From Lachnospiraceae bacterium (GTDB lineage: Bacteria; Bacillota; Clostridia; Lachnospirales; Lachnospiraceae), in NCBI GenBank assembly GCA_029227035.1, contig JAQXZD010000109.1:1-46659 (forward strand): DNA of 46,659 bases, in the 5' to 3' direction. Below, one piece after another: positions 3,068 to 23,427 of the stretch. A program made the translations under genes and the position numbers. The notes under the pieces are model-generated. The model did not search any database, had not been told where the DNA came from, and saw nothing but the letters and a program-made list of their open reading frames with translations. Positions within the stretch are counted from its first letter, which is position 1; every line of letters begins with the position of its first letter.

Positions 3068-3671
3068 CATGCTTGAATTAACACGCCGAATGACGGTAGA
3101 CAGATCGAATTTCAGCAGGATTGCCGGTTGTTACGTGGATCCGGATGGAGAGATTGACGGAACCTTCAACCGCAGTTTTTTGCGATTGACACCGGCAGAG
3201 AAAGAGCAGCATCTGAAAATAGCAAAGGCTATTCCCTATGCACAGACAAACACAGAGCTGAATGCATACAGAATACCCAAGGAGCGAACCGGGGCAAACA
3301 ATATCTGGCAGCTTCTGGACGGAATCAAAAATTCCGAGATGAAAAATGATGCACTGCTGGATGTACTGTATGAAATTATGGCGGATTATTTTGTGGTGGA
3401 TCATGAATGGGGAATGTATGTCTTTTACGGTAGTTATGATATTCCGGCAAAGGGAGCAGATCATGTGGAACAGTGGGAATCCGAGGAAGTATATCAGCAT
3501 CTGATTTTTGCATTTTGTCCGGTGGACGAGGAGTATAATCCGGGGGAACCGGAGTATGGGATTCTTTATCCGTTGTTTACAAACAGGTCCGCAGACTTTG
3601 ATCATGTTGCCATATTTGATCCGAAGAAAGCGCATGATGAGATGACAATCGGATTGTTTAAACTGGTATAG
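3048..3671 (+). CDS. Short DUF4317-family protein
   Basis: A 207-aa protein. The ATG at 3048 has agaggaa about 7 bases upstream. The N-terminal pattern (DMLELTRRMTVDRSNFSRIAGCYVD), the central DxLLDVLYEIMADYF and the later EEVYQHLIFAFCPV followed by YPLFTNRSAD match the conserved first half of DUF4317 proteins, which are common in Lachnospiraceae. Family members as I remember them run to about 400 residues, so this copy lacks the C-terminal half. Function is unknown. It begins inside the end of arsC, suggesting co-transcription. Confidence 0.7.
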   Translation: MKIDRNDMLELTRRMTVDRSNFSRIAGCYVDPDGEIDGTFNRSFLRLTPAEKEQHLKIAKAIPYAQTNTELNAYRIPKERTGANNIWQLLDGIKNSEMKNDALLDVLYEIMADYFVVDHEWGMYVFYGSYDIPAKGADHVEQWESEEVYQHLIFAFCPVDEEYNPGEPEYGILYPLFTNRSADFDHVAIFDPKKAHDEMTIGLFKLV

Positions 3672-3686
3672 CGAATATAAATTAAC

Positions 3687-3706
3687 TACTACATTTACTT
3701 GTAGTA
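3687..3706. promoter_or_regulatory. Inverted repeat TACTACA-N6-TGTAGTA
   Basis: Perfect 7-bp arms (3687-3693 and 3700-3706) lie between the DUF4317 gene and the disrupted gene at 3761. No T-tract follows, so an operator is more likely than a terminator. The half-sites resemble BlaI/CopY-type boxes, but the spacer is longer than in those operators. Confidence 0.4.
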
Positions 3707-3760
3707 TTGGATTGAGAATATTTTGGATAAAATTTTCTGAAAATGTACTGGAGGAGAAGG

Positions 3761-4285
3761 GTGATAGAAAACAGAAAGATTGCAATAATTACAGATGCGG
3801 ATAATAAAAAAATTGTTTTGATTAATGATATTGTGTTTAAGGGAAAGCGCAATGTAAATTGGGAAGATGTAAAAACTTATCTTAAAGGGTTTGTGGGTGA
3901 TTTTTATACAATAGAAGAGAGCGCTGAAAAAATATACATAGGGAATGAATTACCGGATGAATTCACCGGATCAATTAGTAGAAAATCTTTAATGGGAGCA
4001 AATGCCAAAGCTAAAGCGAATGCAGCGATAGCAATTCCATAATTGATACAAATTGCTTCGAACCCATCATTTCAGAAAAATGTAAAAGAAAAGCATGCAA
4101 AAGACGCCAAAAATGGTTGGTATAGATATGATGTTAGATTTGGAATTCCTGTATATGAAAATGATGTTCTGATTAGATATAATATATATGGTGCAAGATT
4201 ACTCGTTAATCATGCACAAAATGGCAAAAAGTACTTATATGATATTTTGGCAATAAAAAAAGAAACGAGCAAGCCACAACAGTAG
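3761..4285 (+). pseudogene. LPD3-like mobile-element protein interrupted by a stop codon
   Basis: One reading frame is split by a TAA at 4040-4042. Upstream it encodes about 93 residues from a GTG at 3761 (RBS ggagga), including KIVLINDIVFKG, KIYIGNELPDEFTGS and ANAKAKANAAIAIP. Downstream the same frame continues with IQIASNPSF, HAKDAKNGWYRYDVRFGIPVY and YLYDILAIKKETS. The two halves together match a domain I associate with large polyvalent proteins of phages and conjugative elements (LPD3-like). Because the frame is kept, a single substitution explains the break (GAA or CAA to TAA). An upstream in-frame ATG at 3743 has no room for an RBS. The family call is moderate; the interruption is plainly visible. 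Confidence 0.6.
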
Positions 4286-13968: not shown

Positions 13969-14009
13969 TCCGGAGAGCATGTTTTTTTGAACGAAAGAGG
14001 GGGAAGAAT

Positions 14010-14114
14010 ATGTTATTATTTTCAACACCGCATTTTATTACTTATCTGATTGAGGGCGGATTCTTAAAAAACGATGGAAATCTGCCTGTCTTTCGTCTTT
14101 GTGCAGGAGAGTAA
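14010..14114 (+). CDS. 34-aa small ORF, probably a gene remnant
   Basis: ATG at 14010 with a strong RBS (gagggggaa) encodes MLLFSTPHFITYLIEGGF followed by LKNDGNLPVFRLCAGE and a double stop (TAA TAG). The same frame stays open afterwards to about 14190 (AGTLAELGERTGSSKERFG), so this may be the decayed start of a longer gene. No family recognised. Confidence 0.35.
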   Translation: MLLFSTPHFITYLIEGGFLKNDGNLPVFRLCAGE

Positions 14115-14184
14115 TAGCACCAATGGTGCATTGCGGGAACGCTTGCAGAGCTAGGAGAAAGGACGGGCAGCAGTAAAGAAAGAT

Positions 14185-14493
14185 TTGGATAACACGGAAC
14201 TGAAAACGAGAAGATATGATGTACTTACAGATATCCTGCAGGCCAATGAATATCAAGGCACCGGAAAAAAGAGAGCAGAGGAGGCAAAACGTCTGCTCAG
14301 TAACTACAGCGGCATGACTCCAAAACTAAGAAAGGGGCTGGAGGATATTGGCTTTGTGTTTGATGAATCCGATCATCAGAAGGTGAAATATTACGGGGAT
14401 GACCGGTATACGGTTGTCTATGCAAGTACACCAAGTGATAAGGGGCATGGTGGGAAAAATAATGCGGCGGTGACGGCGAAGAAGGCGTTTTAA
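14185..14493 (+). pseudogene. C-terminal remnant of an unidentified protein
   Basis: An open frame of 102 codons with only a TTG (14185) as start and no adjacent RBS. The frame also continues upstream past a TAG at 14152 with plausible coding sequence (ALRERLQS, then EKGRAAVKKDLD), which suggests a longer gene whose beginning has decayed. The visible part ends in DDRYTVVYASTPSDKGHGGKNNAAVTAKKAF, which looks like a natural C-terminus. No function assigned. It lies among other debris between the ATPase and the WYL regulator. Confidence 0.45.
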
Positions 14494-14753: not shown

Positions 14754-14785
14754 TGACATATTATGTCACAGAGAAATGCTATAGT
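14754..14785 (+). promoter_or_regulatory. WYL-gene promoter with TGACA-N5-TGTCA element
   Basis: Inverted repeat TGACA-tatta-TGTCA (14754-14768), 11 bp, then TATAGT as -10 (14780-14785). There is no consensus -35. The same element with the same spacing precedes the 451-aa gene (17712-17743) and the rtcB operon (23396-23427). Confidence 0.8.
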
Positions 14786-14850
14786 GAATTAGAAAATTAT
14801 TAAGGCAGTAAGACAAACAATTAATTGATTTTTCAGAGTGGAGAGACTGG

Positions 14851-16248
14851 ATGGAAAAAGAAGTATTCAATGAATACAATAAAATGAAAAAAGATATTGC
14901 TTCAGTTAATACTAGGCGTGGAGGGTCTGCTGATGGTTTAAAGGGATTTTATGCTGAACGAGTTAACGCAACTGAAAATAATATAGAAAGAATAGAGAAA
15001 GGCATAAAGGCTAGAGTATACGTAGTAGATGACAATGGATCTAGTGATGCGGTTATTAAATATAGTAATGGACAATTAGGGCGTGAAATACAAGATAAAT
15101 GTGGTTATAATAATCCTTCTGCTATAAAAAAAATGATAGATAGTGGGCAGTATGATGGGATGGTTTTGGAAATAAACGAAGACCATTCTATATTTCAAAA
15201 TGGCAAGCAAGCGAGATGGAGAATTAGATTAGATATGGAAACAAATAAACACCCAAAAAACTCCCGCACCTTGGACATGTATGCTCGTTTATGTGAGGGA
15301 AAAGTAATCAATAAAACTGAAGAAGCCCACAGATTTGGCGTGGACGAACGATCCATCCAGCGCGACATTGACGACATACGCGCTTTTCTTGATGACCGGA
15401 GCACCACCTATACTTCGGACAACAGAACTGTTGTCTACGACCGTTCCAGGAAAGGCTTTATTATGCAGGGTGCCGAAGGCTCTGCCATGACCAATAGCGA
15501 AATTCTTGCCGTCACGAAGATTCTGTTGGAGAGCCGTGCTTTTACCAAGAAGGAGCTAAGCAATATTCTTGATAAGCTGGTAGAGGGTTGCGTTCCGCTG
15601 AAGAACATGAAGCTGGTCAGTGACCTGATTGCCAACGAGAAATACCACTATGTGGAACTGCATCATAAGCCGGTAACGCAGGACATGCTGTGGAAGCTGG
15701 GCGAGAACATTAAGGAGCATAATCTTTTGGAAATTAAATACACTAAGGCAGACGCACCGAAAGAATCCGTGAAGCGGATTATTGAACCGGTTGCCATCTT
15801 GTTTTCGGAGTATTATTTTTATCTGAATGCGTACATTGACGATATGGATGATAAGGGCAAATATGTACATAAATATGATTATCCGGCCATTTTCCGGCTG
15901 GATCGAATTCAGGATTACAAGATGCTCGGAGAGAAATTCCAGATTCCGTATGCCAACCGGTTTGAGGAAGGTGAGTTCCGGAAACGGATTCAGTTTATGT
16001 ATGCCGGTAAGCTCATGAATATCCGGCTAAAATATTATGGCAATAATCCGGAACCGATTTTGGACAGGCTTCCGACTGCCAGAATTATTGAGCAAAAGGA
16101 GTCGGAGGTCATCATTGAAGCGGAAGTGTACGGAAAAGGAATTGTGATGTGGCTGCTGAGTCAGGGAAGCCGTATTGAGGTGCTGAAGCCGGATTCCCTT
16201 CGGCAGGAGATGAAGCAGACGTTGCTGGAAATGCTGGATAGATATTAG
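14851..16248 (+). CDS. WYL-domain transcriptional regulator with an unusual N-terminal extension
   Basis: 465 residues from the ATG at 14851 (gtggaga upstream). Residues about 129-190 contain a DeoR-like helix-turn-helix (LDMYARLCEGKVINKTEEAHRFGVDERSIQRDID in two pieces). Residues about 275-360 are the WYL ligand-sensing domain, with the signature as YFYLNAY, followed by a WCX-like C-terminal domain to residue 465. Typical relatives begin near METNKHPKNSRTLDMY, here residue 129 (ATG at 15235, ggag 13 bases upstream). The first 128 residues are AT-richer and resemble a different, mobile-element-type protein (SADGLKGFYAERVNATENN, then NGQLGREIQDKCGY). A fusion or recombination joint is likely. 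It probably controls the rtcB regulon through the shared promoter element. Confidence 0.85.
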   Translation: MEKEVFNEYNKMKKDIASVNTRRGGSADGLKGFYAERVNATENNIERIEKGIKARVYVVDDNGSSDAVIKYSNGQLGREIQDKCGYNNPSAIKKMIDSGQYDGMVLEINEDHSIFQNGKQARWRIRLDMETNKHPKNSRTLDMYARLCEGKVINKTEEAHRFGVDERSIQRDIDDIRAFLDDRSTTYTSDNRTVVYDRSRKGFIMQGAEGSAMTNSEILAVTKILLESRAFTKKELSNILDKLVEGCVPLKNMKLVSDLIANEKYHYVELHHKPVTQDMLWKLGENIKEHNLLEIKYTKADAPKESVKRIIEPVAILFSEYYFYLNAYIDDMDDKGKYVHKYDYPAIFRLDRIQDYKMLGEKFQIPYANRFEEGEFRKRIQFMYAGKLMNIRLKYYGNNPEPILDRLPTARIIEQKESEVIIEAEVYGKGIVMWLLSQGSRIEVLKPDSLRQEMKQTLLEMLDRY

Positions 16249-16290
16249 GGAACTTTTTGAATGAAATAGTGTGAAAAAGTTCCCTAATAT
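16242..16290. terminator. Bidirectional terminator, 17-bp perfect inverted repeat
   Basis: 16242-16258 and 16274-16290 are perfect complements (core AGGGAACTTTTT / AAAAAGTTCCCT) with a 15-nt loop. The left arm contains the WYL stop codon. It sits between convergent genes, and A/T runs on both sides suit termination in both directions. Confidence 0.85.
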
Positions 16291-16306
16291 TATTGTAGAG
16301 GATACT

Positions 16307-17662
16307 CTAAACCGCTTTCTTCACGCAGCACCTCATAAGATAATCCTCAATCTTTTCATCCTTTCCCATCGCAGGCAGGCCGGTTCCGATTTTGTCGATG
16401 ATATCCTCGATTTCAGAAACATACGACTGATAGGCTGAAAAGGCGGCACCGTAGAAGGTGTTTGCATGTTCGTTGAGGTCATTTTCCATTTCCCGGATTG
16501 CAGAGTGGACATTGGTAAGGGTGTAATCGATACTGTCCTTGGAAAGCAGTGTTTCCAGCGTGCGGGAGAAGAAATCATCATAGAATCTGTGGTCATGTTC
16601 TTCGATTTCCGCCTGCTCAATAAAATAATCGAAATCGTACATGCTGTAATAGTCCCGGTTATCGTCCAGTTCACTTTCAAATTCGCTAAGAAGCGATTTG
16701 TAGCTTTTATCTACTTTTCCCATTAATTTATCATACCGCTCACTGACACCCATCATGGTGCACAATGTTTCCAGTGGTTTTCTTGTGTCTTCAAATACAG
16801 AGCAGATCCATCTACTGTAAAATTCGGCTGCCTCTTTTGACAGGGATTTGGAATTGCCGGTGGTAATGTACTTCTCGGCTTCGTCATAAGCCTTTCGGAT
16901 GTAATGATCCCGTGCTTTTCTACATTCTGATTTGGAAGTGTAAACCTTTCCCAGGGCAGAAGAATTATAGAAAAGATGGTGCGGGGTAATCAGCTTCCTG
17001 GATTTCAGACGTTTATGGAATGCTGTGGCAAGTGGTGAGTGCGTTTCCTGAAAATCATCATATCCATTGGAAATAGCTGCGGCTTTGGCAAATTCTGCGG
17101 TTGTCGGATTCTCTTCCGTTGGGAGTGAAAAACCGGACATTTTGATGCCTGCCTTTTCGTATTGCACTTTGGTATAAGGATTTTCAATCGTTGCATTCCC
17201 AAGATTCGTGTATTCCACGCCTGGAACCCGAAGCGGAATGGAGAAGCTGTTGTTGCACAAATAGATTTTCTTTTCCTGTTTATCTAACAGTTCTGCCAGT
17301 TCTTCCTGATTCATGGCAATCAGTTCCATATCCGGCAAAAAGTCTGGATCTTTGGCACATTCGCATACAATACTTAGCTTTTCATTCCAGTTGTTTTGTT
17401 CTTCAGCGGTCAGCTTTTGATAAAGACGATATTCTACGCCCAGGGCAAGGCATATTTGACGAAGGCAGTCAGCCTGCGTGCAATCGATTTTTTCGATGGC
17501 ATCTGCTTCCGTTTCATAATAGTGCTGCCTGAGCCAGTTCTGTAATTGTCCGTTCATATGATATTTCATGATTTCTTCCGGGTTGAAATTTTTGCGAAGC
17601 TCATCAAGGGAATGAATCGTGGTGTTGAATAACACCAGTTCTACTTTGTTATTTTGTGTCAT
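16307..17662 (-). CDS. Uncharacterised 451-aa protein of the WYL/rtcB regulon
   Basis: 451 residues from the ATG at 17662 (aaggagattacgtcg upstream). Soluble, acidic and largely helical; no signal peptide or membrane helix. The N-terminus (VELVLFNTTIHSLDELRKNF, then GQLQNWLRQHYYETEADAIEKI) resembles an N-terminal module I have seen on otherwise different proteins but cannot name. The middle contains Cys residues without a clear zinc motif (CTQADC, VCECA, YLCNN). The C-terminal half looks like long helices (RKARDHYIRKAYDEAEKYI, YDFDYFIEQAEIEEHDHRF). No enzymatic motif was found. Its promoter carries the same operator as rtcB and the WYL gene, so a role in the same response is inferred. Confidence 0.75.
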   Translation of the reverse strand: MTQNNKVELVLFNTTIHSLDELRKNFNPEEIMKYHMNGQLQNWLRQHYYETEADAIEKIDCTQADCLRQICLALGVEYRLYQKLTAEEQNNWNEKLSIVCECAKDPDFLPDMELIAMNQEELAELLDKQEKKIYLCNNSFSIPLRVPGVEYTNLGNATIENPYTKVQYEKAGIKMSGFSLPTEENPTTAEFAKAAAISNGYDDFQETHSPLATAFHKRLKSRKLITPHHLFYNSSALGKVYTSKSECRKARDHYIRKAYDEAEKYITTGNSKSLSKEAAEFYSRWICSVFEDTRKPLETLCTMMGVSERYDKLMGKVDKSYKSLLSEFESELDDNRDYYSMYDFDYFIEQAEIEEHDHRFYDDFFSRTLETLLSKDSIDYTLTNVHSAIREMENDLNEHANTFYGAAFSAYQSYVSEIEDIIDKIGTGLPAMGKDEKIEDYLMRCCVKKAV

Positions 17663-17711
17663 CGACGTAATCTCCTTTCAAATAATTTATGTTTATCAAC
17701 TTTCTGTACCT

Positions 17712-17743
17712 ATCATATCTTGACTGGATGACACCGAATGTCA
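17712..17743 (-). promoter_or_regulatory. Promoter of the 451-aa gene with TGACA-N5-TGTCA element
   Basis: Reading the minus strand: TGACA-ttcgg-TGTCA (17729-17743), 11 bp, then TATGAT (17712-17717). The flank CAAGATATGATA is identical to that at the rtcB promoter. The leader is about 45 nt. Confidence 0.8.
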
Positions 17744-17781
17744 GGGTGAAAAAGGATTTTATATCTAGTATAAATTATCCA

Positions 17782-17963
17782 TTGCATGGTGATGATGCAA
17801 ATGCTATAATTTCGTAAAAGCATTACATTTTCATGTTAAGCATAGTCCGACATGACGGACTGTTTTCTAGGTATCTTAAATTATTAACAAGCGTTTCGAA
17901 AATTCTTGCTTTTTATTTCAATATGGCGAAGCAGGAATTTTGGTTGCTCATTGTGATTCCTGC
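17782..17963 (+). promoter_or_regulatory. Promoter and hairpin-rich leader of the Rpn-family pseudogene
   Basis: TTGCAT (17782-17787), 17 bp, TATAAT (17805-17810). The 170-nt leader contains AGTCCG/CGGACT (17844-17861, then gtttt) and GCAGGAAT/ATTCCTGC (17931-17938 and 17956-17963). These may be an attenuator or remnant structures. Confidence 0.5.
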
Positions 17964-17990
17964 TATACAACAGAATAGGGGGAAATACAC

Positions 17991-18766
17991 ATGAGTGGAA
18001 ACAGAGAGTACAAAAGTGATGTGTTTAGTATGCTGTTGGAGGACAAAACAAATGCCTTGCAGCTTTATAACGCATTGAACAAATCAGAATATACCGATCC
18101 GGAGATGGTGGAAATAAGGACTCTGGACAAGGGAGTATCGCTATCAGTGCGGAATGATGCAGCATTTGTTTTGGATTCAAATCTAAGTATTTATGAGCAT
18201 CAGTCAACGGTATGTCCGAATATGCCGGTGCGGTGCATCATATATTTCAGCAGTATCATAGAAAAAATGGTAAAGAGTCAATGGAGCAACCGGAACTGGA
18301 ATTGACCTGCCGGGTGTATAATATTAATTGCGGACGGAACAAGGCGTTGTTGGATGCCTGCCCGGTACTTAGAGAGTATATGCTTTTTGTAGATTATGTG
18401 AGAGAATATCATGCAAACCAGGGATATGAAAATCTGGAGATGGCAATCAATCTTGCAATCGATCGCTGTATCCGGGAGAATGTGCTGAAGGATTTTCTGG
18501 TTGAGAATCGTTCGGAGGTGGTGAAGGTGACACAACTGGATTATACATTTGACAGGCAAATTGAATTGGAGCGGGCTGATGCCAGAAAGGAAGGCTGGAC
18601 CGAAGGAAGAGCAGAAGGAAGAGCCGAGGGAAGAACAGAAGGTAGTGCACAGCAGATTATTGAAATTGGGCGTGAGATTGGTTGGACCAATGATGAAATT
18701 CTTGAGCGCCTGAAAACAAAACTGAATATATCCGAAGAACAGGCCAGGTCATATATGACAAAATGA
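17991..18766 (+). pseudogene. Rpn/YhgA-type PD-(D/E)XK nuclease (transposase-like) gene, broken by deletion and frameshift
   Basis: The first frame (ATG 17991, RBS aggggga) encodes GNREYKSDVFSMLLEDKTNA through MPVRCIIYFSSIIEKMVK, the usual N-terminal half of this family, then ends abnormally at 18305. A second frame resumes with EQPELELTCRVYNINCG and runs through REYMLFVDYVREYHANQGYE and VVKVTQLDYTFDRQIELE to 18766. In relatives about 50 residues (the region with NIYG...KIPTPHF...FYNG) lie between these blocks; here they are missing, so a deletion that shifted the frame is inferred. The C-terminus has tandem EGRAEGRAEGRTEG repeats. Family members promote recombination or act as mobile nucleases; this copy should be inactive. 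Confidence 0.8.
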
Positions 18767-18780
18767 TAATTTTGAAGTAG

Positions 18781-18816
18781 AACAGGCACCTATCACATTC
18801 ATAGGGGCCTGTTTTA
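18781..18816. terminator. Terminator between the pseudogene and the VWA gene
   Basis: AACAGGCaCCTAT (18781-18793) and ATAGGgGCCTGTT (18801-18813) pair with one internal mismatch, followed by TTATTT. It can serve the convergent rtcB operon too, whose last codons lie in it. Confidence 0.75.
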
Positions 18817-20649
18817 TTTCATATAAAACACCTTTCCCTTTGGCACAAAGGGCAGACGATTTCCCTTTGGAAGCAGAAATGCATGTTCCCGTTTTATTTT
18901 CAAATCCGATTCTATGTATCCGTCTGTAATAACAAGGATTGGACCGTTTGCAGGAAAATCTTTTGCCTTTTCCAGTGCGTCCACTCCGGGCTGCAGGACG
19001 GTGCCGCCCCGCCCGGTAACTTCTACTCTGCCGGCAATTTCTTCCGGCGGAAGATAGCCGGCATCTGTGGCTGCGGCATCGCAGAAAATGAGCCGGACAT
19101 AGGGTACATCTTTGGAAACGGCATAGCTTGCAATGGCTCCAAGCGCAAGTCCAATCTGCTGTGTGGACATGGAACCGGAGGTGTCAATGACAACTCCGAA
19201 GGTTCTGCTTGTCAGATCTCTTTCCTGGAAAGCGTAGCTTGGTCTTGGGATATCCGGCGTGGCACCCTGGCGGCGGCTTGGCCTTGCGTAGGTGCGGTGT
19301 TTTCCCAGTGGCGGGAACTGCGCGTCAAACCATTCGGCAAGTTCTGCTTCCCATGGAATCGGTGGCATGGACAGGGCACGGATTTCTTCAATCAGTCCTG
19401 CGGGGATCAGGCCCCTGCCTTTGATAATATGAAAATCAAGTCCCTCACGCAGGGAATTCCGAAAAAAATCATCCAGGGAAATACCTTTGTCCAGCCCTTC
19501 AAAATGCGGACTGTTATTTCCGAAAATATCTCCTTTTCCATAACCGCGGAAGGTTTTGAGTTTCTTGTATTTTCGAAGCTCACGGACAATGCGGTCATAG
19601 ATTGCCTCTGCGGATAAGCCGTGCAGTGTCTTATCATAAAGCAGTCCTTCCCTGGGCATGGTCCCAATCTGCATTTCATGGAGCCAGTCGTTAATCACGT
19701 AATCGCATGCCACGTTCCAGAGATAAGAGTCGCGCCCCTGACAACGTTTATGATGACAGAGCCCTGCATGGAGATATTCGTGCGCCAGTACGAATTTCCA
19801 TTCCTCCTCCGTAAATCCGCAGGTGGGATTTGCATAGATTTCCCCAAGGGAAGCGTCCACGGCTGCAATCTGGATTTCATACCGGTGACAGATATCCACA
19901 TCTTCTATAATTTTAAAAGAAGCTGCAAGTCCGCCCAGTAAAGGAAAGTGAGACAGAAACCATTCGGCAGCTTTGGTGACAGGGGTATCTCTTTTTTCGG
20001 TCCACTTATGTTCGCCGGCAGTGCTTACTGCTTCCTTAACGGAATGAGTGATTGCATAGGAAAACTTTGCGGCAAATGAATTGGTCTCATGATTTTTATA
20101 AACAATCGGATGATTCAGTCCAATCATATCGCAGTTGTCAGCGGAGTTTAGTCCATAAGTCTGCCTGGGTTCGGTTCCCTCTTCTGTTAACAGATATTCA
20201 TAAATTCTGGCTTCATCATTCATCCTGAGTTTCGGATAGGCGGAAGCCGGATCTAAAACCAGTGGACATCCAAAACCGATATCCATAAGAAATCTTGTGA
20301 CATAAATATCACAGGCTTTATTCCAGACTGCAGGAAAATATTCCAGTGTCTGGGGAAGCTTATCGGAATCAAAATGACCGAATGCTGGGTGAAGCAGACA
20401 ATGTGCCAGTGCATATGCCCACTCTTCTGCGGTCAGCCGGGCGTTGTAGTCTGTATAAATCTGTCCGCCGGAAGTGACGCAGGCAATGCTTCCCCGCCCG
20501 TTCAGGTGTGATGCCCTGGGATAAATATCGCCGTCCAGCTGACAAAATAGCGGATGATCAAGCAGAATGCGGGCACCCTGTTGAAGAACGGAATAGCCGG
20601 CCGGCTCCTGTTGATTTGAATAATAATATTTGTTATGAAAAGTAAGCAT
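18814..20649 (-). CDS. VWA-like protein with duplicated metallopeptidase module (DUF2201 type)
   Basis: 611 residues from the ATG at 20649 (gaggt upstream). Residues about 72-120 and 280-325 are internal homologues: T-x-EEW...LAH-xx-LH...WN-x-ACD-x-x. The second copy has an intact HExxH zinc-protease motif (H290-E-Y-L-H294, then CHH). In the first copy the Glu is replaced (H83-C-L-L-H87). The C-terminus (about 470-600) is a von Willebrand A domain with a MIDAS motif (DTSGSMS), a Thr in GGTVLQPG and the Asp in LVITDGYIE. It matches the pairing of DUF2201/VWA proteins with MoxR ATPases. It is last in the rtcB operon, 16 bp after moxR. It is cytoplasmic and may act as a chaperone- or protease-like partner. 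Confidence 0.88.
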   Translation of the reverse strand: MLTFHNKYYYSNQQEPAGYSVLQQGARILLDHPLFCQLDGDIYPRASHLNGRGSIACVTSGGQIYTDYNARLTAEEWAYALAHCLLHPAFGHFDSDKLPQTLEYFPAVWNKACDIYVTRFLMDIGFGCPLVLDPASAYPKLRMNDEARIYEYLLTEEGTEPRQTYGLNSADNCDMIGLNHPIVYKNHETNSFAAKFSYAITHSVKEAVSTAGEHKWTEKRDTPVTKAAEWFLSHFPLLGGLAASFKIIEDVDICHRYEIQIAAVDASLGEIYANPTCGFTEEEWKFVLAHEYLHAGLCHHKRCQGRDSYLWNVACDYVINDWLHEMQIGTMPREGLLYDKTLHGLSAEAIYDRIVRELRKYKKLKTFRGYGKGDIFGNNSPHFEGLDKGISLDDFFRNSLREGLDFHIIKGRGLIPAGLIEEIRALSMPPIPWEAELAEWFDAQFPPLGKHRTYARPSRRQGATPDIPRPSYAFQERDLTSRTFGVVIDTSGSMSTQQIGLALGAIASYAVSKDVPYVRLIFCDAAATDAGYLPPEEIAGRVEVTGRGGTVLQPGVDALEKAKDFPANGPILVITDGYIESDLKIKREHAFLLPKGNRLPFVPKGKVFYMK

Positions 20650-20665
20650 GTTGATTACCTCTTTT

Positions 20666-21724
20666 TTATTTATTTACAAGGCGTGGCAGATCACGGATCA
20701 CTTCTACCATGAACCAGTCCGGAAGTGCGTGTTCATCATCTGCGGCAACCGTCATCTGTGCAATTTCAAAATTGATCACAGACAGCTCTTTAATCATTCC
20801 CTTGGCGCGATATACAAAGGAAAGCATATTTCCGGAAATGTCCTTTTTGTTCTGCGGCAGTTCTTCCAGAAGTTTAGCCCGGAAGGACTGTGCCAGAAAA
20901 TAGAGCACATCCCGGTCATCCGGTTTTGCCGGCCATTTGGCTTTTTGTGCAATAATTTCATCGAGGATATGGTTATTCTTGAGGCTTTTGGTATAAGCTA
21001 AGAACATACCGGCATGGGATGGAGACAGGCATCCATAGGCAAGCATTTTCAAAGTGTTTGTCGGAATTTCTTTTTCCCCTGCACCGTATTCAGTCAGTGC
21101 ATCGCTTAACATATGCCAGGAACGGGGCGTGGAAAAAGGCTCCTCTGTTTTCGGCGGCTCTGAGAAGAGGTGATCCGGTCTCTGGATAATGTAGTCAATC
21201 ACCCATGAATGGAGTCCGGCACTCTGTGCCCATTTAATCCACTGTCTGGCGTCGGCTTTCAACTGTACATGAAACATGCGGTTAATCAGGGCAGATGACA
21301 TGGTCTTTACAATGGCGCTGTCCTGTGCCCGGTTTCCGGCACCTACCACAATGCTGCCTTCCAGGAGGTAATATTCCCCAATTCTTCTTTCGTGGATGAG
21401 GGAGTAAAAAGCTTTCTGGACTTCCTGTGAGCAGGCATTTAACTCATCCAGAAAAAGGACATACGGTTCCTTTCTGGCAATCATTTTTGGCGGGAGGAAT
21501 TCGGAGGTGTCCCCTTTGATCTGTGGGATTCCGATGATATCCTCCGGTGCCAGCTGGCTTCCAAGCAGTGAAACGCATGGAAGACCAACTTCTGCGGCAA
21601 ATTGCTCTACGAGAGCTGATTTTCCGATTCCCGGTGCACCCCAGATAAACACCGGTCTTGAGGGCGCAATATTTAATAATATTTCTAAGAGGTCACTCTG
21701 GGTGACCGTAATTGGCAGATTCAT
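20666..21724 (-). CDS. MoxR-type AAA+ ATPase
   Basis: 352 residues from the ATG at 21724. Walker A is GAPGIGKS at residues 29-36, Walker B is YVLFLDELNA near residues 88-97, and the helix after it (EVQKAFYSLIHERRIG) and the sensor region (VGAGNRAQDSA) are as in MoxR/CbbQ-like ATPases. MoxR proteins work with VWA-domain partners to remodel or insert metals into target complexes. The VWA gene follows 16 bp later and the small Cys-rich gene ends 4 bp before, so these three and rtcB form one operon. Confidence 0.9.
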   Translation of the reverse strand: MNLPITVTQSDLLEILLNIAPSRPVFIWGAPGIGKSALVEQFAAEVGLPCVSLLGSQLAPEDIIGIPQIKGDTSEFLPPKMIARKEPYVLFLDELNACSQEVQKAFYSLIHERRIGEYYLLEGSIVVGAGNRAQDSAIVKTMSSALINRMFHVQLKADARQWIKWAQSAGLHSWVIDYIIQRPDHLFSEPPKTEEPFSTPRSWHMLSDALTEYGAGEKEIPTNTLKMLAYGCLSPSHAGMFLAYTKSLKNNHILDEIIAQKAKWPAKPDDRDVLYFLAQSFRAKLLEELPQNKKDISGNMLSFVYRAKGMIKELSVINFEIAQMTVAADDEHALPDWFMVEVIRDLPRLVNK

Positions 21725-21728
21725 ATCG

Positions 21729-21905
21729 CTATATTCCTTTCATTTTTTCGTTATACTGTTTTTTCTTGTTGATATGGCGAACCTTTGCCCGCGGATAGTA
21801 TTTGCGGCAGTGCTGGCAATAGCCTTTATATTCTGCGGTACGTCCTTTCTGGCATTCGCCGTAACTTATGTAATATTTGCATGGTGTTTCTCTGAATTTG
21901 CTCAT
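21729..21905 (-). CDS. Small Cys-rich (zinc-ribbon-like) protein of the rtcB operon
   Basis: 58 residues from the ATG at 21905 (aaagga upstream); an in-frame ATG at 21938 has a weaker context. Four cysteines in the order C-x8-C-x11-C-x2-C (PCKYYISYGEC, GYCQHC) could bind one zinc. The C-terminal half is strongly basic (YPRAKVRHINKKKQYNEKMK), suggesting nucleic-acid or ribonucleoprotein binding. It sits 64 bp after rtcB and 4 bp before moxR, a tight coupling that argues it is real and part of the system. I know no named family; function is inferred only from composition and context. Confidence 0.7.
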   Translation of the reverse strand: MSKFRETPCKYYISYGECQKGRTAEYKGYCQHCRKYYPRAKVRHINKKKQYNEKMKGI

Positions 21906-21969
21906 CACAAACACATCCTTTCTTCTTGGCTTGAACAAAATATGGTACGTTCCTGCGAATAATGTGAAT

Positions 21970-23115
21970 TTAACTTCCAGCTTTGTAGTTGTAAATTGGA
22001 CGAATAGTCTTATCGATATTTACGGTAGCTCCTATGACATCCTGAATATCCGCAAGACTCCGATAGGCAAACGGAGCTTCATCCAACGTTTCCCGGCTGA
22101 TGCAGGAAGAATAAATCCCTTTCATGGAAGCTTTGAAGGCGGAAAGCGTATAGTTATTTTTGATATCTTCACGCTTCATAATTCTTCCGGAGCCGTGGGG
22201 TGCGGAGCAGTTCCATTCGGTATTTCCAAGTCCTGTACCCAGAAGGATTCCATCACGCATGTTGATTGGAATAATCACTTTTTCGCCAGCCTGCGCTGAG
22301 ATTGCACCTTTCCGAAGAACCGGAGCACCAAACTGCTCAAGGACTGTTTGGGAAGTATCAACATAATTGTGAATGCAGGAGTAAGTGTCTGCAATTTTCC
22401 ATTTCATGCCTTTGCAGATTTCTGCAATCATAATGTCGCGGCTGATACGGGCATATTCCTGCACAATTGTTAAATCATGAATGTAAGAGTCCTTTAAAGA
22501 GCCCTCCAGATAAGTGAGCTCATAAGGAACCTGGATATTCTGCGCTTTCAGAAATTTTTGCCCTTCGTTCAGATAATATTCTGTCACTTCTTTTCCCAGA
22601 TGCCGGCTGCCGGAGTGAATGACAAGATACGTGTTTTTATCCGTATCCTGGTCCACCTCGATAAAATGATTTCCGGCTCCAAGACTTCCAGCGGAAAGCA
22701 GGGCTTTGTTCCGGTTAATATGTGCGCCGCAATGCAGTCTGTCAAAATCGAAATCAGCGATATATGGGTGCACATTATTTCTGATGGAAAAGCCGGATGG
22801 TACCCGTTCCCGGATGACGGTATCCAGTTTTGGAAATTCTTTTACTCTGCCTTTGATTTTTGCAAGCGTCATGCCGCAGCCGATGTCGATGCCCACCACA
22901 TTTGGCATAAGTTTCTCACCGACAGTCATGGTGAGCCCGATTGTGCATACTTTTCCCGGATGGACATCAGGCATAACGCGGATACGTGTTCCCTTGGAAG
23001 TCTCATTGTCGCAGAGCATCTGAAGCTGGGCGAGAGCGTACTTCTCTATGGGATGGTTGTTTGTAGTGAAAATAGTAGCGGAAGTGTATGTTCCGTTTAT
23101 TGTTGTAGTTCCCAT
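21970..23115 (-). CDS. rtcB: RtcB RNA-splicing ligase
   Basis: 381 residues from the ATG at 23115 (aaagga 10 bases upstream). RtcB joins RNA 2',3'-cyclic phosphate or 3'-phosphate ends to 5'-OH ends using GTP and Mn2+. Conserved blocks are all present: PDVHPGK at 49-55, VVGIDIGCGM at 73-82 with metal ligands D77 and C80, LGAGNHFIEV, HSGSRHLG, and the GMP-accepting-His region NCSAPHGSGR. The length fits the short RtcB subfamily rather than the E. coli type of about 408 aa. No RtcA cyclase and no sigma-54 RtcR regulator is nearby; instead the operon has MoxR and VWA genes and a WYL-type promoter element. It is the first enzyme gene of a four-gene operon. Confidence 0.95.
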   Translation of the reverse strand: MGTTTINGTYTSATIFTTNNHPIEKYALAQLQMLCDNETSKGTRIRVMPDVHPGKVCTIGLTMTVGEKLMPNVVGIDIGCGMTLAKIKGRVKEFPKLDTVIRERVPSGFSIRNNVHPYIADFDFDRLHCGAHINRNKALLSAGSLGAGNHFIEVDQDTDKNTYLVIHSGSRHLGKEVTEYYLNEGQKFLKAQNIQVPYELTYLEGSLKDSYIHDLTIVQEYARISRDIMIAEICKGMKWKIADTYSCIHNYVDTSQTVLEQFGAPVLRKGAISAQAGEKVIIPINMRDGILLGTGLGNTEWNCSAPHGSGRIMKREDIKNNYTLSAFKASMKGIYSSCISRETLDEAPFAYRSLADIQDVIGATVNIDKTIRPIYNYKAGS

Positions 23116-23211
23116 ATCTTCGAAATCCTTTCGTGAAGGTATAGGAGTACCCTTTACGGATAAACAGCTACCGGTAGAAAATTTATAGAAATTGATAAAA
23201 GTGTTCTATAG

Positions 23212-23289
23212 TTACTGTTCCAATCCCCAAGAGGTCCTACACCTGTTATTAAATTGTAAAGTGAATGAGTGATTGTTTACTGTTGTCAT
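23212..23289 (-). CDS. 25-aa leader ORF upstream of rtcB
   Basis: The leader of the rtcB operon contains an ATG (23289) preceded by a near-perfect Shine-Dalgarno (aaaggaggtcaatt), far stronger than that of rtcB itself. The frame encodes MTTVNNHSFTLQFNNR then CRTSWGLEQ and a stop at 23212-23214, 96 bp before rtcB. It may be a leader peptide controlling operon translation, a tiny protein, or the remnant of a longer one: another frame from 23279 to about 23150 is also open (GVGPLGDWNSNYRTLL), so a frameshift is conceivable. No family recognised. Confidence 0.5.
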   Translation of the reverse strand: MTTVNNHSFTLQFNNRCRTSWGLEQ

Positions 23290-23327
23290 AATTGACCTCC
23301 TTTCATGAAAGTATCTTTATAGTTACA

Positions 23328-23382
23328 CTAATTCAATATATCGGATCATGAGGAAAAATCCTTAAACTTTTTCTTGAATTAG
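23328..23382 (-). other. Stem-loop in the rtcB operon leader
   Basis: CTAATTCAA (23328-23336) and TTGAATTAG (23374-23382) can pair, enclosing a small AGGA/TCCT hairpin (23351-23362). This lies just downstream of the predicted start of the rtcB transcript, followed by a palindrome (CTTTCATGAAAG, 23300-23311) next to the leader-ORF RBS. A regulatory RNA structure is possible. Confidence 0.45.
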
Positions 23383-23395
23383 CTTTTCTGTAAAT

Positions 23396-23427
23396 ATCAT
23401 ATCTTGGTTGAATGACACAGGATGTCA
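23396..23427 (-). promoter_or_regulatory. rtcB operon promoter with TGACA-N5-TGTCA element
   Basis: Minus strand: TGACA-tcctg-TGTCA (23413-23427), 11 bp, TATGAT (23396-23401). No consensus -35 at the proper distance, which points to an activator. The predicted leader is about 275 nt. Confidence 0.82.

Follow-up and report, generated by a model that had tools for sequence, protein, structure and literature searches.

We describe a regulatory layout in a 46,659-nucleotide (nt) contig of a Lachnospiraceae bacterium (assembly GCA_029227035.1, contig JAQXZD010000109.1; this whole stretch is called the window) in which a gene for a WYL-domain transcription regulator, a gene for a 451-amino-acid (451-aa) protein, and an operon headed by the RNA ligase gene rtcB each follow the same promoter element. 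The element is a palindrome, TGACA-N5-TGTCA, set exactly 11 base pairs (bp) ahead of a TAnnnT -10 box, and it is well supported that the three transcription units form one regulon sharing it. The rtcB operon, which continues with genes for a small Cys-rich basic protein (cysP), a MoxR-type ATPase (moxR), and a VWA-like protein with a metallopeptidase-like part (vwa), also begins with a leader containing a short open reading frame (ORF), which we read as a ribosome-mediated attenuator. On balance we lean towards two stacked controls on this operon, a WYL-activated promoter followed by a leader attenuator that reports on translation.

The three sites and their -10 boxes (TATAGT for the WYL gene, TATGAT for the other two) had been picked out in a first-pass annotation made from the sequence alone, and all are exact matches (Table 1). 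Its observation that none has a good -35 also holds: at a 15-19 bp spacer, the best hexamer in the three window promoters agrees with TTGACA at only 2/6 positions. In the organism's own genome (2,401,743 bases assembled, 85.6% complete), TGACA-N5-TGTCA-N11-TAnnnT has 3 exact matches, all inside the window, and a reversed-pattern control has 0, so the scatter over random genome positions that the annotation had named as speaking against its claim was not seen. The perfect palindrome alone occurs at 8 places in this genome, with TAnnnT at 11 bp in just the 3 window sites. From the reversed-control rate, which rests on a by-eye tally of ~45 reversed-pattern matches in 397 genomes, ~4e-4 exact matches would arise by chance over the 8,674 bp spanning the sites, and the probability of 3 or more is ~1e-11.

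The element is also found in relatives. We searched the best 80 of 239 loci from a MoxR protein scan (1.16 Mb), in whose choice the promoter played no part. A palindrome gap of 5 occurs 19 times in these loci, and the other gaps from 2 to 9 occur 0-1 times each; TAnnnT lies at the 11-bp spacer 16 times, compared with 0-6 times at the other spacers from 5 to 17, and the reversed pattern is found 0 times. Chance occurrence of the motif was rejected on this gap and spacer preference, the window-only matches in the genome, and the P of ~1e-11. The 16 exact sites sit in 9 of the 80 loci, and 11 of them lead to rtcB, moxR or cysP, or to a 451-type gene. Examples include Roseburia hominis An869 (L204), where the rtcB operon and a 451 homologue each have a separate exact site, L210 with the same pair, L205, L209 with divergent rtcB and moxR genes, L224 with the element before an rtcB-prfH-moxR-vwa operon and before a homologue of the 451 C-terminal half, and L271 with the element before a second rtcB and before moxR-vwa-rtcB-prfH. 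The motif is likewise conserved at such genes in G074 (L045). Locus L208 of Eubacterium ramulus ATCC 29099, which includes the L113 core that was tested, has the WYL gene (66%) next to its rtcB operon, and its sites match with one mismatch. The tail-to-tail 451/WYL pair of the window recurs in G074 and L224. The search of related Lachnospiraceae that the annotation had proposed has in this way placed the motif before rtcB/moxR operons, 451-type genes, and WYL genes.

The other five exact sites precede other genes, one of them a member of F20, a recurrent family without known function (L113 14380-15465; L168; L224 14335-15411; L131 9800-10738). An F20 gene lies directly behind the palindromic element in L113 (one mismatch), L168, and L224, and in L208 the WYL gene adjoins F20 as well as the rtcB operon. 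Over the 397 genomes, the exact pattern is found at 81 places against ~45 for the reversed control (both counted by eye). A general WYL motif in every family genome was rejected on these counts; they indicate that many single matches elsewhere are background, and we therefore put the weight on the MoxR-chosen loci.

The WYL protein is our candidate for the factor that would bind and activate the element, much as PafBC does in mycobacteria. Its WYL (6.3e-8) and WCX (1.3e-7) matches are over cut-off, and helix-turn-helix-WYL (HTH-WYL) models match as well. The HTH-WYL-WCX part is preceded by a private N-terminal part of ~128 residues (14851-15234) fused in frame, and homologues start near the equivalent of Met129 (15235); the private part has no family match, no viral relative, and no relative in 224 other locus records. 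The own genome contains one close WYL match, and the flanking ORFs at 14185-14493 and 16307-17662 are not WYL.

We examined the link between WYL genes and the element in loci fetched for the exact motif only, 70 loci that cover 71 of the 81 places; outside this set are the window's three sites, the two of G122, that of G074, one from G112 and one from G176 (both in loci fetched for other reasons), and those of G381 and G150. The window's WYL family (at least 48% to one of nine queries from the family) is present in 8 of the 70 loci, where ~0.02 are expected from family density, and remote WYL regulators are present in three more. The WYL reading frame starts at most 40 bp after the motif in L021, L026, L041, and L196, lies divergent from it at ~80 bp in L170, and is farther away in L035, L040, and L169. 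The remote WYL regulators of L172 and L201 have the motif at their own gene start. In L169 the motif, the leader, a shortened rtcB, cysP, moxR (88%), and vwa follow in a row, and a remote WYL piece (36% to the window WYL) has its own site with 1 mismatch. The L169 rtcB copy (3452-3840), inside the cysP-moxR-vwa operon, is reduced to its start and end. Loci whose selection did not involve the motif contain 34 WYL genes; the element lies within 300 bp upstream of 7 with at most one mismatch and of 10 with at most two, compared with random-window rates of 0.8% and 1.3% for the same search; all seven of the former are 43-50% homologues.

Several results weigh against WYL control of the element. 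The nine closest WYL homologues (53% or more) have no motif within 300 bp upstream, the best candidate having 4 mismatches, and L233 and L239, two Butyrivibrio loci with a 64% WYL, have none even at 1 mismatch. Across 200 genomes, with any known only through the motif left out, the exact motif is present in 3 of the 6 that have a close WYL and in 30 of the remaining 194, a weak association (p 0.058) that weakens further when the own genome is omitted (p 0.18). Neither motif nor leader is matched in G292, a genome of the same genus, so the system is sporadic. A different regulator could therefore bind the palindrome, the WYL gene being merely a target: close WYL homologues often lack an upstream motif, the genome-level association is not significant, and in six of the nine MoxR loci that carry the exact motif, the fetched stretch contains no WYL match. 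However, retrieval by motif alone would then not be expected to recover the WYL family so far above its density, nor remote WYL regulators such as those of L172 and L201 to carry the motif at their own start, and we regard this explanation as improbable. The proposal in the first-pass annotation of one WYL regulon thus stands as to the shared element, its conservation, and the WYL genes beside the motif, and is weakened by the nine closest homologues and the association at p 0.058.

Genes for proteins that are hydrophobic or rich in glycine, and for a small protein with a Cys cluster, are grouped with WYL genes in L271 1115-3732, L118 8285-11678, and L157 4625-5939; the four larger proteins of these sets have no Pfam family over cut-off.

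The geometry of the element also bears on whether its regulator activates or represses. A WYL protein of the BrxR/CapW type would act as a dimer that blocks the promoter from an inverted repeat and is released by a damage or phage ligand. BrxR represses from inverted repeats with a 5-bp spacer near the -10 box (PMC9122601), and here the palindrome has a gap of 5 and precedes some WYL genes. However, the palindrome keeps a constant 11 bp from the -10 box (16 occurrences vs 0-6) and the -35 is absent, features that suit an activator and not a blocker, and we think repression rather unlikely. PafBC, a mycobacterial WYL activator of DNA-damage genes, shares both the HTH-WYL-WCX layout and a TGTC(R/A)-11 bp-TAnnnT promoter without a proper -35 (PMC5656591, PMC11804915). 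The PafBC consensus that the annotation had given proved correct, tTGTCRgtg-8nt-TannnT being TGTCR, 11 bp, and TAnnnT (PMC5656591). PafBC is, however, a heterodimer contacting DNA with PafB, whereas the window has one WYL gene and a palindromic site, and the large DNA-repair regulon of PafBC has no counterpart here: by the exact pattern only, the own genome has 3 sites, none at a DNA-repair gene. Since there is no adjacent WYL partner and there are no DNA-repair sites, the system is not PafBC. The homodimeric WYL activators SiwR and DriD have palindromic sites around -35/-26, as the window element does, and their WYL domains bind single-stranded DNA (PMC10693628, PMC12340889); SiwR uses a -26 element plus palindrome. 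They differ from the window system in site sequence and targets, and no rtcB link appears in the accessible parts of the two papers. The single WYL gene and the palindromic site make a homodimer likely here too, and we regard the regulon as a new form of WYL-type control.

Between the rtcB promoter and rtcB lies a leader whose 25-codon ORF, preceded by a near-perfect Shine-Dalgarno (SD) sequence, was absent from the first-pass annotation. In the window, the SD region pairs with the 3' end of the ORF itself to form a helix, P1, of -14.9 kcal/mol (p 0.013). A first screen of 99 regions, each upstream of a first rtcB or moxR gene, using ribosome-site and length criteria only, found a short leader ORF in 38, of which those of L221, L264, and L272 look unrelated; a wider search of 114 upstream regions gave a working set of 41 leaders. 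A leader ORF with a ribosome site upstream of the operon is thus found in the window and 40 relatives, with 21-35 codons and the SD GAAAGGAGGACAAT or variants of it. P1, formed by the SD flank and the 3' codons of the ORF (GGTTGTCC), reaches p<=0.05 in 38 of the 41, with a mean of -16.5 kcal/mol vs -8.3 kcal/mol for codon-order shuffles. Between the ORF and the first gene, a terminator follows in 26/41 leaders by one detector (shuffles 7/205) and in 30/41 by another (6/123). A strand within codons ~15-20, ACAGAGGTCTGG or similar, is complementary to the 5' arm of the terminator and could serve as a competing antiterminator, with a duplex of -5.6 to -18 kcal/mol that reaches p<=0.05 in 14/26 leaders.

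We judged covariation on an alignment of 22 leaders against slid versions of itself. P1 pairs in 89.7% of cells (slid 29-50%) with changes on both sides at 5/8 pairs, the antiterminator in 75.9% (slid 38-49%) with such changes at 7/10 pairs, and the terminator in 89.1% (slid 38-59%) with such changes at 4/6 pairs. The encoded peptide has a bias of its own: Asn and Thr make up 43% of codons 2-15, compared with 21% in stop-free shuffled sequences (at most 26% over 300 runs) and 21-23% when either other frame is read. Asn and Thr account for ~21% each in these codons, though Lys, Gln, His, and Pro codons are equally A/C-rich.

The strong ribosome site might instead serve a small functional protein without a regulatory role, as the consensus SD and the residues N-R/K-G-L/M-x-V/I-L, conserved in most copies of the ORF, would suggest. 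This we consider quite improbable, because L223, L251, and L252 read the same RNA in a different frame with the pairing kept, the helices covary, a terminator usually follows, and there is no third-position bias. Differences between six pairs of leaders are even across codon positions (15/17/21), so that, its Asn/Thr content apart, the peptide sequence shows no visible constraint; these counts and the frame-shifted copies weaken the case for peptide conservation as the purpose of the leader. Conversely, the leader could be a metabolite- or protein-binding RNA switch in which the ORF is accidental, given a structured and conserved RNA that has no Rfam match. The restriction of the Asn/Thr enrichment to frame 0, and a core that keeps the reading frame of the start codon in 29 of 35 leaders in which it could be placed, make this very improbable in our view.

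A covariance model of the 5' part of the leader (R1, 30 sequences, the window included) matches in 18 of 299 family genomes, at one place each, and 15 of the matches lie directly before rtcB or moxR. Nine of these 15 are in the model or equal to its rows and six are new (G088, G225, G297, G284, G157, and G285); the three that are not before rtcB or moxR rank within the four weakest matches. Applied to 341 genomes sampled from the class, R1 gave the window and two weak matches, in a search whose filters lose weak matches. Searching Rfam with the window stretch and 8 loci gave nothing above the gathering score and, below it, only weak matches to unrelated families. Elsewhere in the fetched loci, Rfam matches were seen to a RAGATH-18 RNA (L238 1899-1971) and an azaaromatic riboswitch (L229 15491-15627). 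Among the open-licence PubMed Central papers covered by our searches we found no description of an rtcB leader ORF or of WYL control of rtcB; a 2016 RNA-repair survey by Burroughs and Aravind, outside that set, may cover parts of the gene context.

The promoter element and the leader are distinct modules. The palindromic element precedes six of the 41 leaders (window, L209, L210, L224, L271, and, with one mismatch, L114), with L169 as a seventh outside the set; L204, L205, and L113 (one mismatch) have the element without the leader, and most other leaders have no element nearby with up to one mismatch. At rtcB/moxR operons the leader is commoner than the element.

The attenuator reading has its own counterweights. 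The choice of the 41 leaders relied in part on a peptide pattern overlapping the P1 strand, with 8 loci let in and 3 excluded by hand, and the leader p-values are optimistic because of this overlap and because the rows are related. The antiterminator duplex is not significant at 0.05 in 12/26 leaders, and the even codon-position differences give no sign of selection on the peptide beyond the Asn/Thr bias. The window leader has no T-run terminator by either of the two detectors, and L204, the closest relative seen (RtcB 88%), has a leader of ~65 nt without an ORF; these two points make attenuation in the own genome uncertain. A predicted fold of the window leader pairs the ORF strand with the stretch just before the rtcB AAAGGA, and with the missing T-run this leads us to consider that the window leader may act at translation, or may be a decaying copy.

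Known attenuators of this kind include those of vmlR (PMC9226507) and hflX (uORFC-6-1; PMC8632094), which likewise combine a short leader ORF with alternative structures before a ribosome-protecting gene. Compared with these, as far as the accessible parts of the two papers go, the rtcB leader is a new sequence family, Asn/Thr-rich, with the SD locked by the ORF's own 3' end, and placed before rtcB or moxR. We regard it as a new family within a known class of attenuators.

The gene identities given in the first-pass annotation (WYL, RtcB, MoxR, VWA-like, 451-aa) were confirmed, the VWA-like DUF2201 match of the 611-aa protein falling just below its cut-off. The window RtcB has a Pfam domain at E = 6.1e-53 and the metal-site motifs D-x2-C, GNH, HSGSR, and HGSGR; its alignment to 1uc2 leaves some metal-site residues uncovered. 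In relatives, cysP is often found between rtcB and moxR. The suggestion that rtcB is here not under RtcR is upheld, since RtcR (PF06956) has 0 matches in the own genome and an E. coli positive control worked. The RtcR-controlled rtcBA operon likewise places RNA repair by RtcB under a dedicated, presumably ligand-sensing regulator; the window system differs in lacking RtcR and in its WYL-type element with a sigma-70-like -10.

RtcB2-PrfH contains a related RtcB. The curated RtcB2-PrfH model TIGR03073 scores the window RtcB at 97.3 bits, below its cut-off of 271.8, no PrfH over the curated cut-off is found in the 85.6% complete own genome, and the window differs further by MoxR, the VWA-peptidase, and the leader attenuator. 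In many relatives with the same leader, prfH adjoins rtcB. RtcB2-PrfH repairs 16S rRNA cut by colicin E3 and gave no protection against those tRNA-targeting toxins that were tested (PMC9223846), and the small Cys-rich basic protein of the window recalls an RtcB2-PrfH accessory protein (PMC6514570). A chaperone pair of jumbo phages, MoxR and a vWA protein with an N-terminal metallopeptidase, consists of the same kinds of protein; it is proposed to act in virion assembly, whereas the window pair adjoins rtcB (PMC7824862).

The 451-aa protein has no Pfam, NCBIfam, or PADLOC family over cut-off and no convincing PDB sequence relative. Its AlphaFold model, built on 4 sequences, has a mean predicted local distance difference test score of 52.6 and no fold match at E<=0.001. 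The protein is rare: of 200 family genomes, 6 have a match. L224 has the C-terminal half by itself, and several proteins next to WYL in L048 contain the N-terminal part. In L050 448-5116, 451-type N-terminal domains lie beside genes that look AAA+ ATPase-like by eye, with no rtcB match in the fetched stretch.

Two further places in the window contain disrupted genes. Fragments of a decayed gene at 13969-14493 belong to a family without a name, of ~475 aa, with longer members at L111 869-2299, beside an 81% WYL homologue, and at L118 1671-3098, a WYL locus. At 17991-18766 one gene is apparently split into two overlapping ORFs in different frames, which by eye we take to resemble Rpn-type nuclease/transposase proteins; Pfam gives nothing over cut-off for either.

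Table 1. Genes, promoter elements, and leader features of the window
Feature	Position	Strand	Basis
WYL-WCX transcription regulator, 465 aa	14851..16248	+	Pfam/profile matches
451-aa protein without assigned family, tail-to-tail with the WYL gene	16307..17662	-	ORF and profile scans
DUF2201_N metallopeptidase-like (HEYLH) and VWA-like protein, 611 aa	18814..20649	-	Pfam; HEYLH read from translation
MoxR-type AAA+ ATPase (AAA_5), 352 aa	20666..21724	-	Pfam
Small Cys-rich basic protein (cysP; C-x8-C...C-x2-C)	21729..21938	-	Translation; neighbours in relatives
RtcB RNA ligase, 381 aa	21970..23115	-	Pfam; alignment to 1uc2
Palindrome TGACA-N5-TGTCA, 11 bp, -10 TATAGT; WYL promoter	14754..14785	+	Exact match
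Palindrome, 11 bp, -10 TATGAT; 451-aa gene promoter	17712..17743	-	Exact match
Palindrome, 11 bp, -10 TATGAT; rtcB operon promoter	23396..23427	-	Exact match
rtcB operon leader, ~274 nt from inferred transcription start	23116..23389	-	Predicted fold, z -2.27
Shine-Dalgarno GAAAGGAGGT of leader ORF; 5' strand of helix P1	23295..23304	-	Sequence, pairing test
Leader ORF, 25 codons, MTTVNNHSFTLQFNNRCRTSWGLEQ	23212..23289	-	Sequence
Leader element matched by covariance model R1 (window is one of 30 training rows)	23223..23311	-	
GACCTCTT, 3' strand of P1, pairs with the leader ORF Shine-Dalgarno	23229..23236	-	
AGGTGTAGG, proposed antiterminator-like strand; predicted pairing with 23137-23145	23236..23244	-	
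CCTATACCT, partner of the 23236-23244 strand, just ahead of rtcB AAAGGA (23126-23131)	23137..23145	-	

In the mechanism that we favour, the WYL protein, probably as a homodimer, would bind TGACA-N5-TGTCA upstream of the -10 box at its own, the 451-aa, and the rtcB promoters. An activator suits these promoters because of the fixed distance to the -10 box and the lack of a -35; ligand-bound WYL protein would replace the missing -35 contact and activate the housekeeping RNA polymerase, like PafBC at its -26 motif. The rtcB-Cys-MoxR-VWA transcript would start with the leader, whose short Asn/Thr-rich ORF may report on translation. In an idle leader, the SD would be hidden in P1 and the antiterminator strand free, so that the operon is read; when the ORF is translated, the ribosome would cover codons 15-20, the terminator would form in the relatives that have one, and the operon would be off. 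Failing ribosomes, or stalled decoding of Asn/Thr codons, would then release the operon, RtcB would reseal cleaved RNA, and the MoxR/VWA-peptidase pair may remodel its target. Within this scheme we infer the WYL ligand, the direction of the attenuator, and the repaired substrate. That RtcB2-PrfH guards against colicin E3 and not against the tRNA toxins tested would favour ribosome damage over tRNA damage as the signal, whereas the Asn/Thr bias of the leader ORF would favour decoding.

For the damage that induces RtcB systems in bacteria, the Asn/Thr-codon leader suggests a candidate signal, either lost ribosome function or lost Asn/Thr decoding. The palindromic element defines a regulon with further members, the 451-aa and F20 families, and provides a non-actinobacterial instance of the PafBC promoter geometry. 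As a wider and still tentative proposal, which we hold possible rather than probable, gut Lachnospiraceae would have a damage control in which a WYL polymerase adaptor and an Asn/Thr leader gate that senses working ribosomes or Asn/Thr tRNAs turn on the rtcB/MoxR/VWA repair operons when translation fails, with the 451-aa protein as a new effector. If this is true, the repair proteins would be made exactly when the translation machinery that they mend fails.

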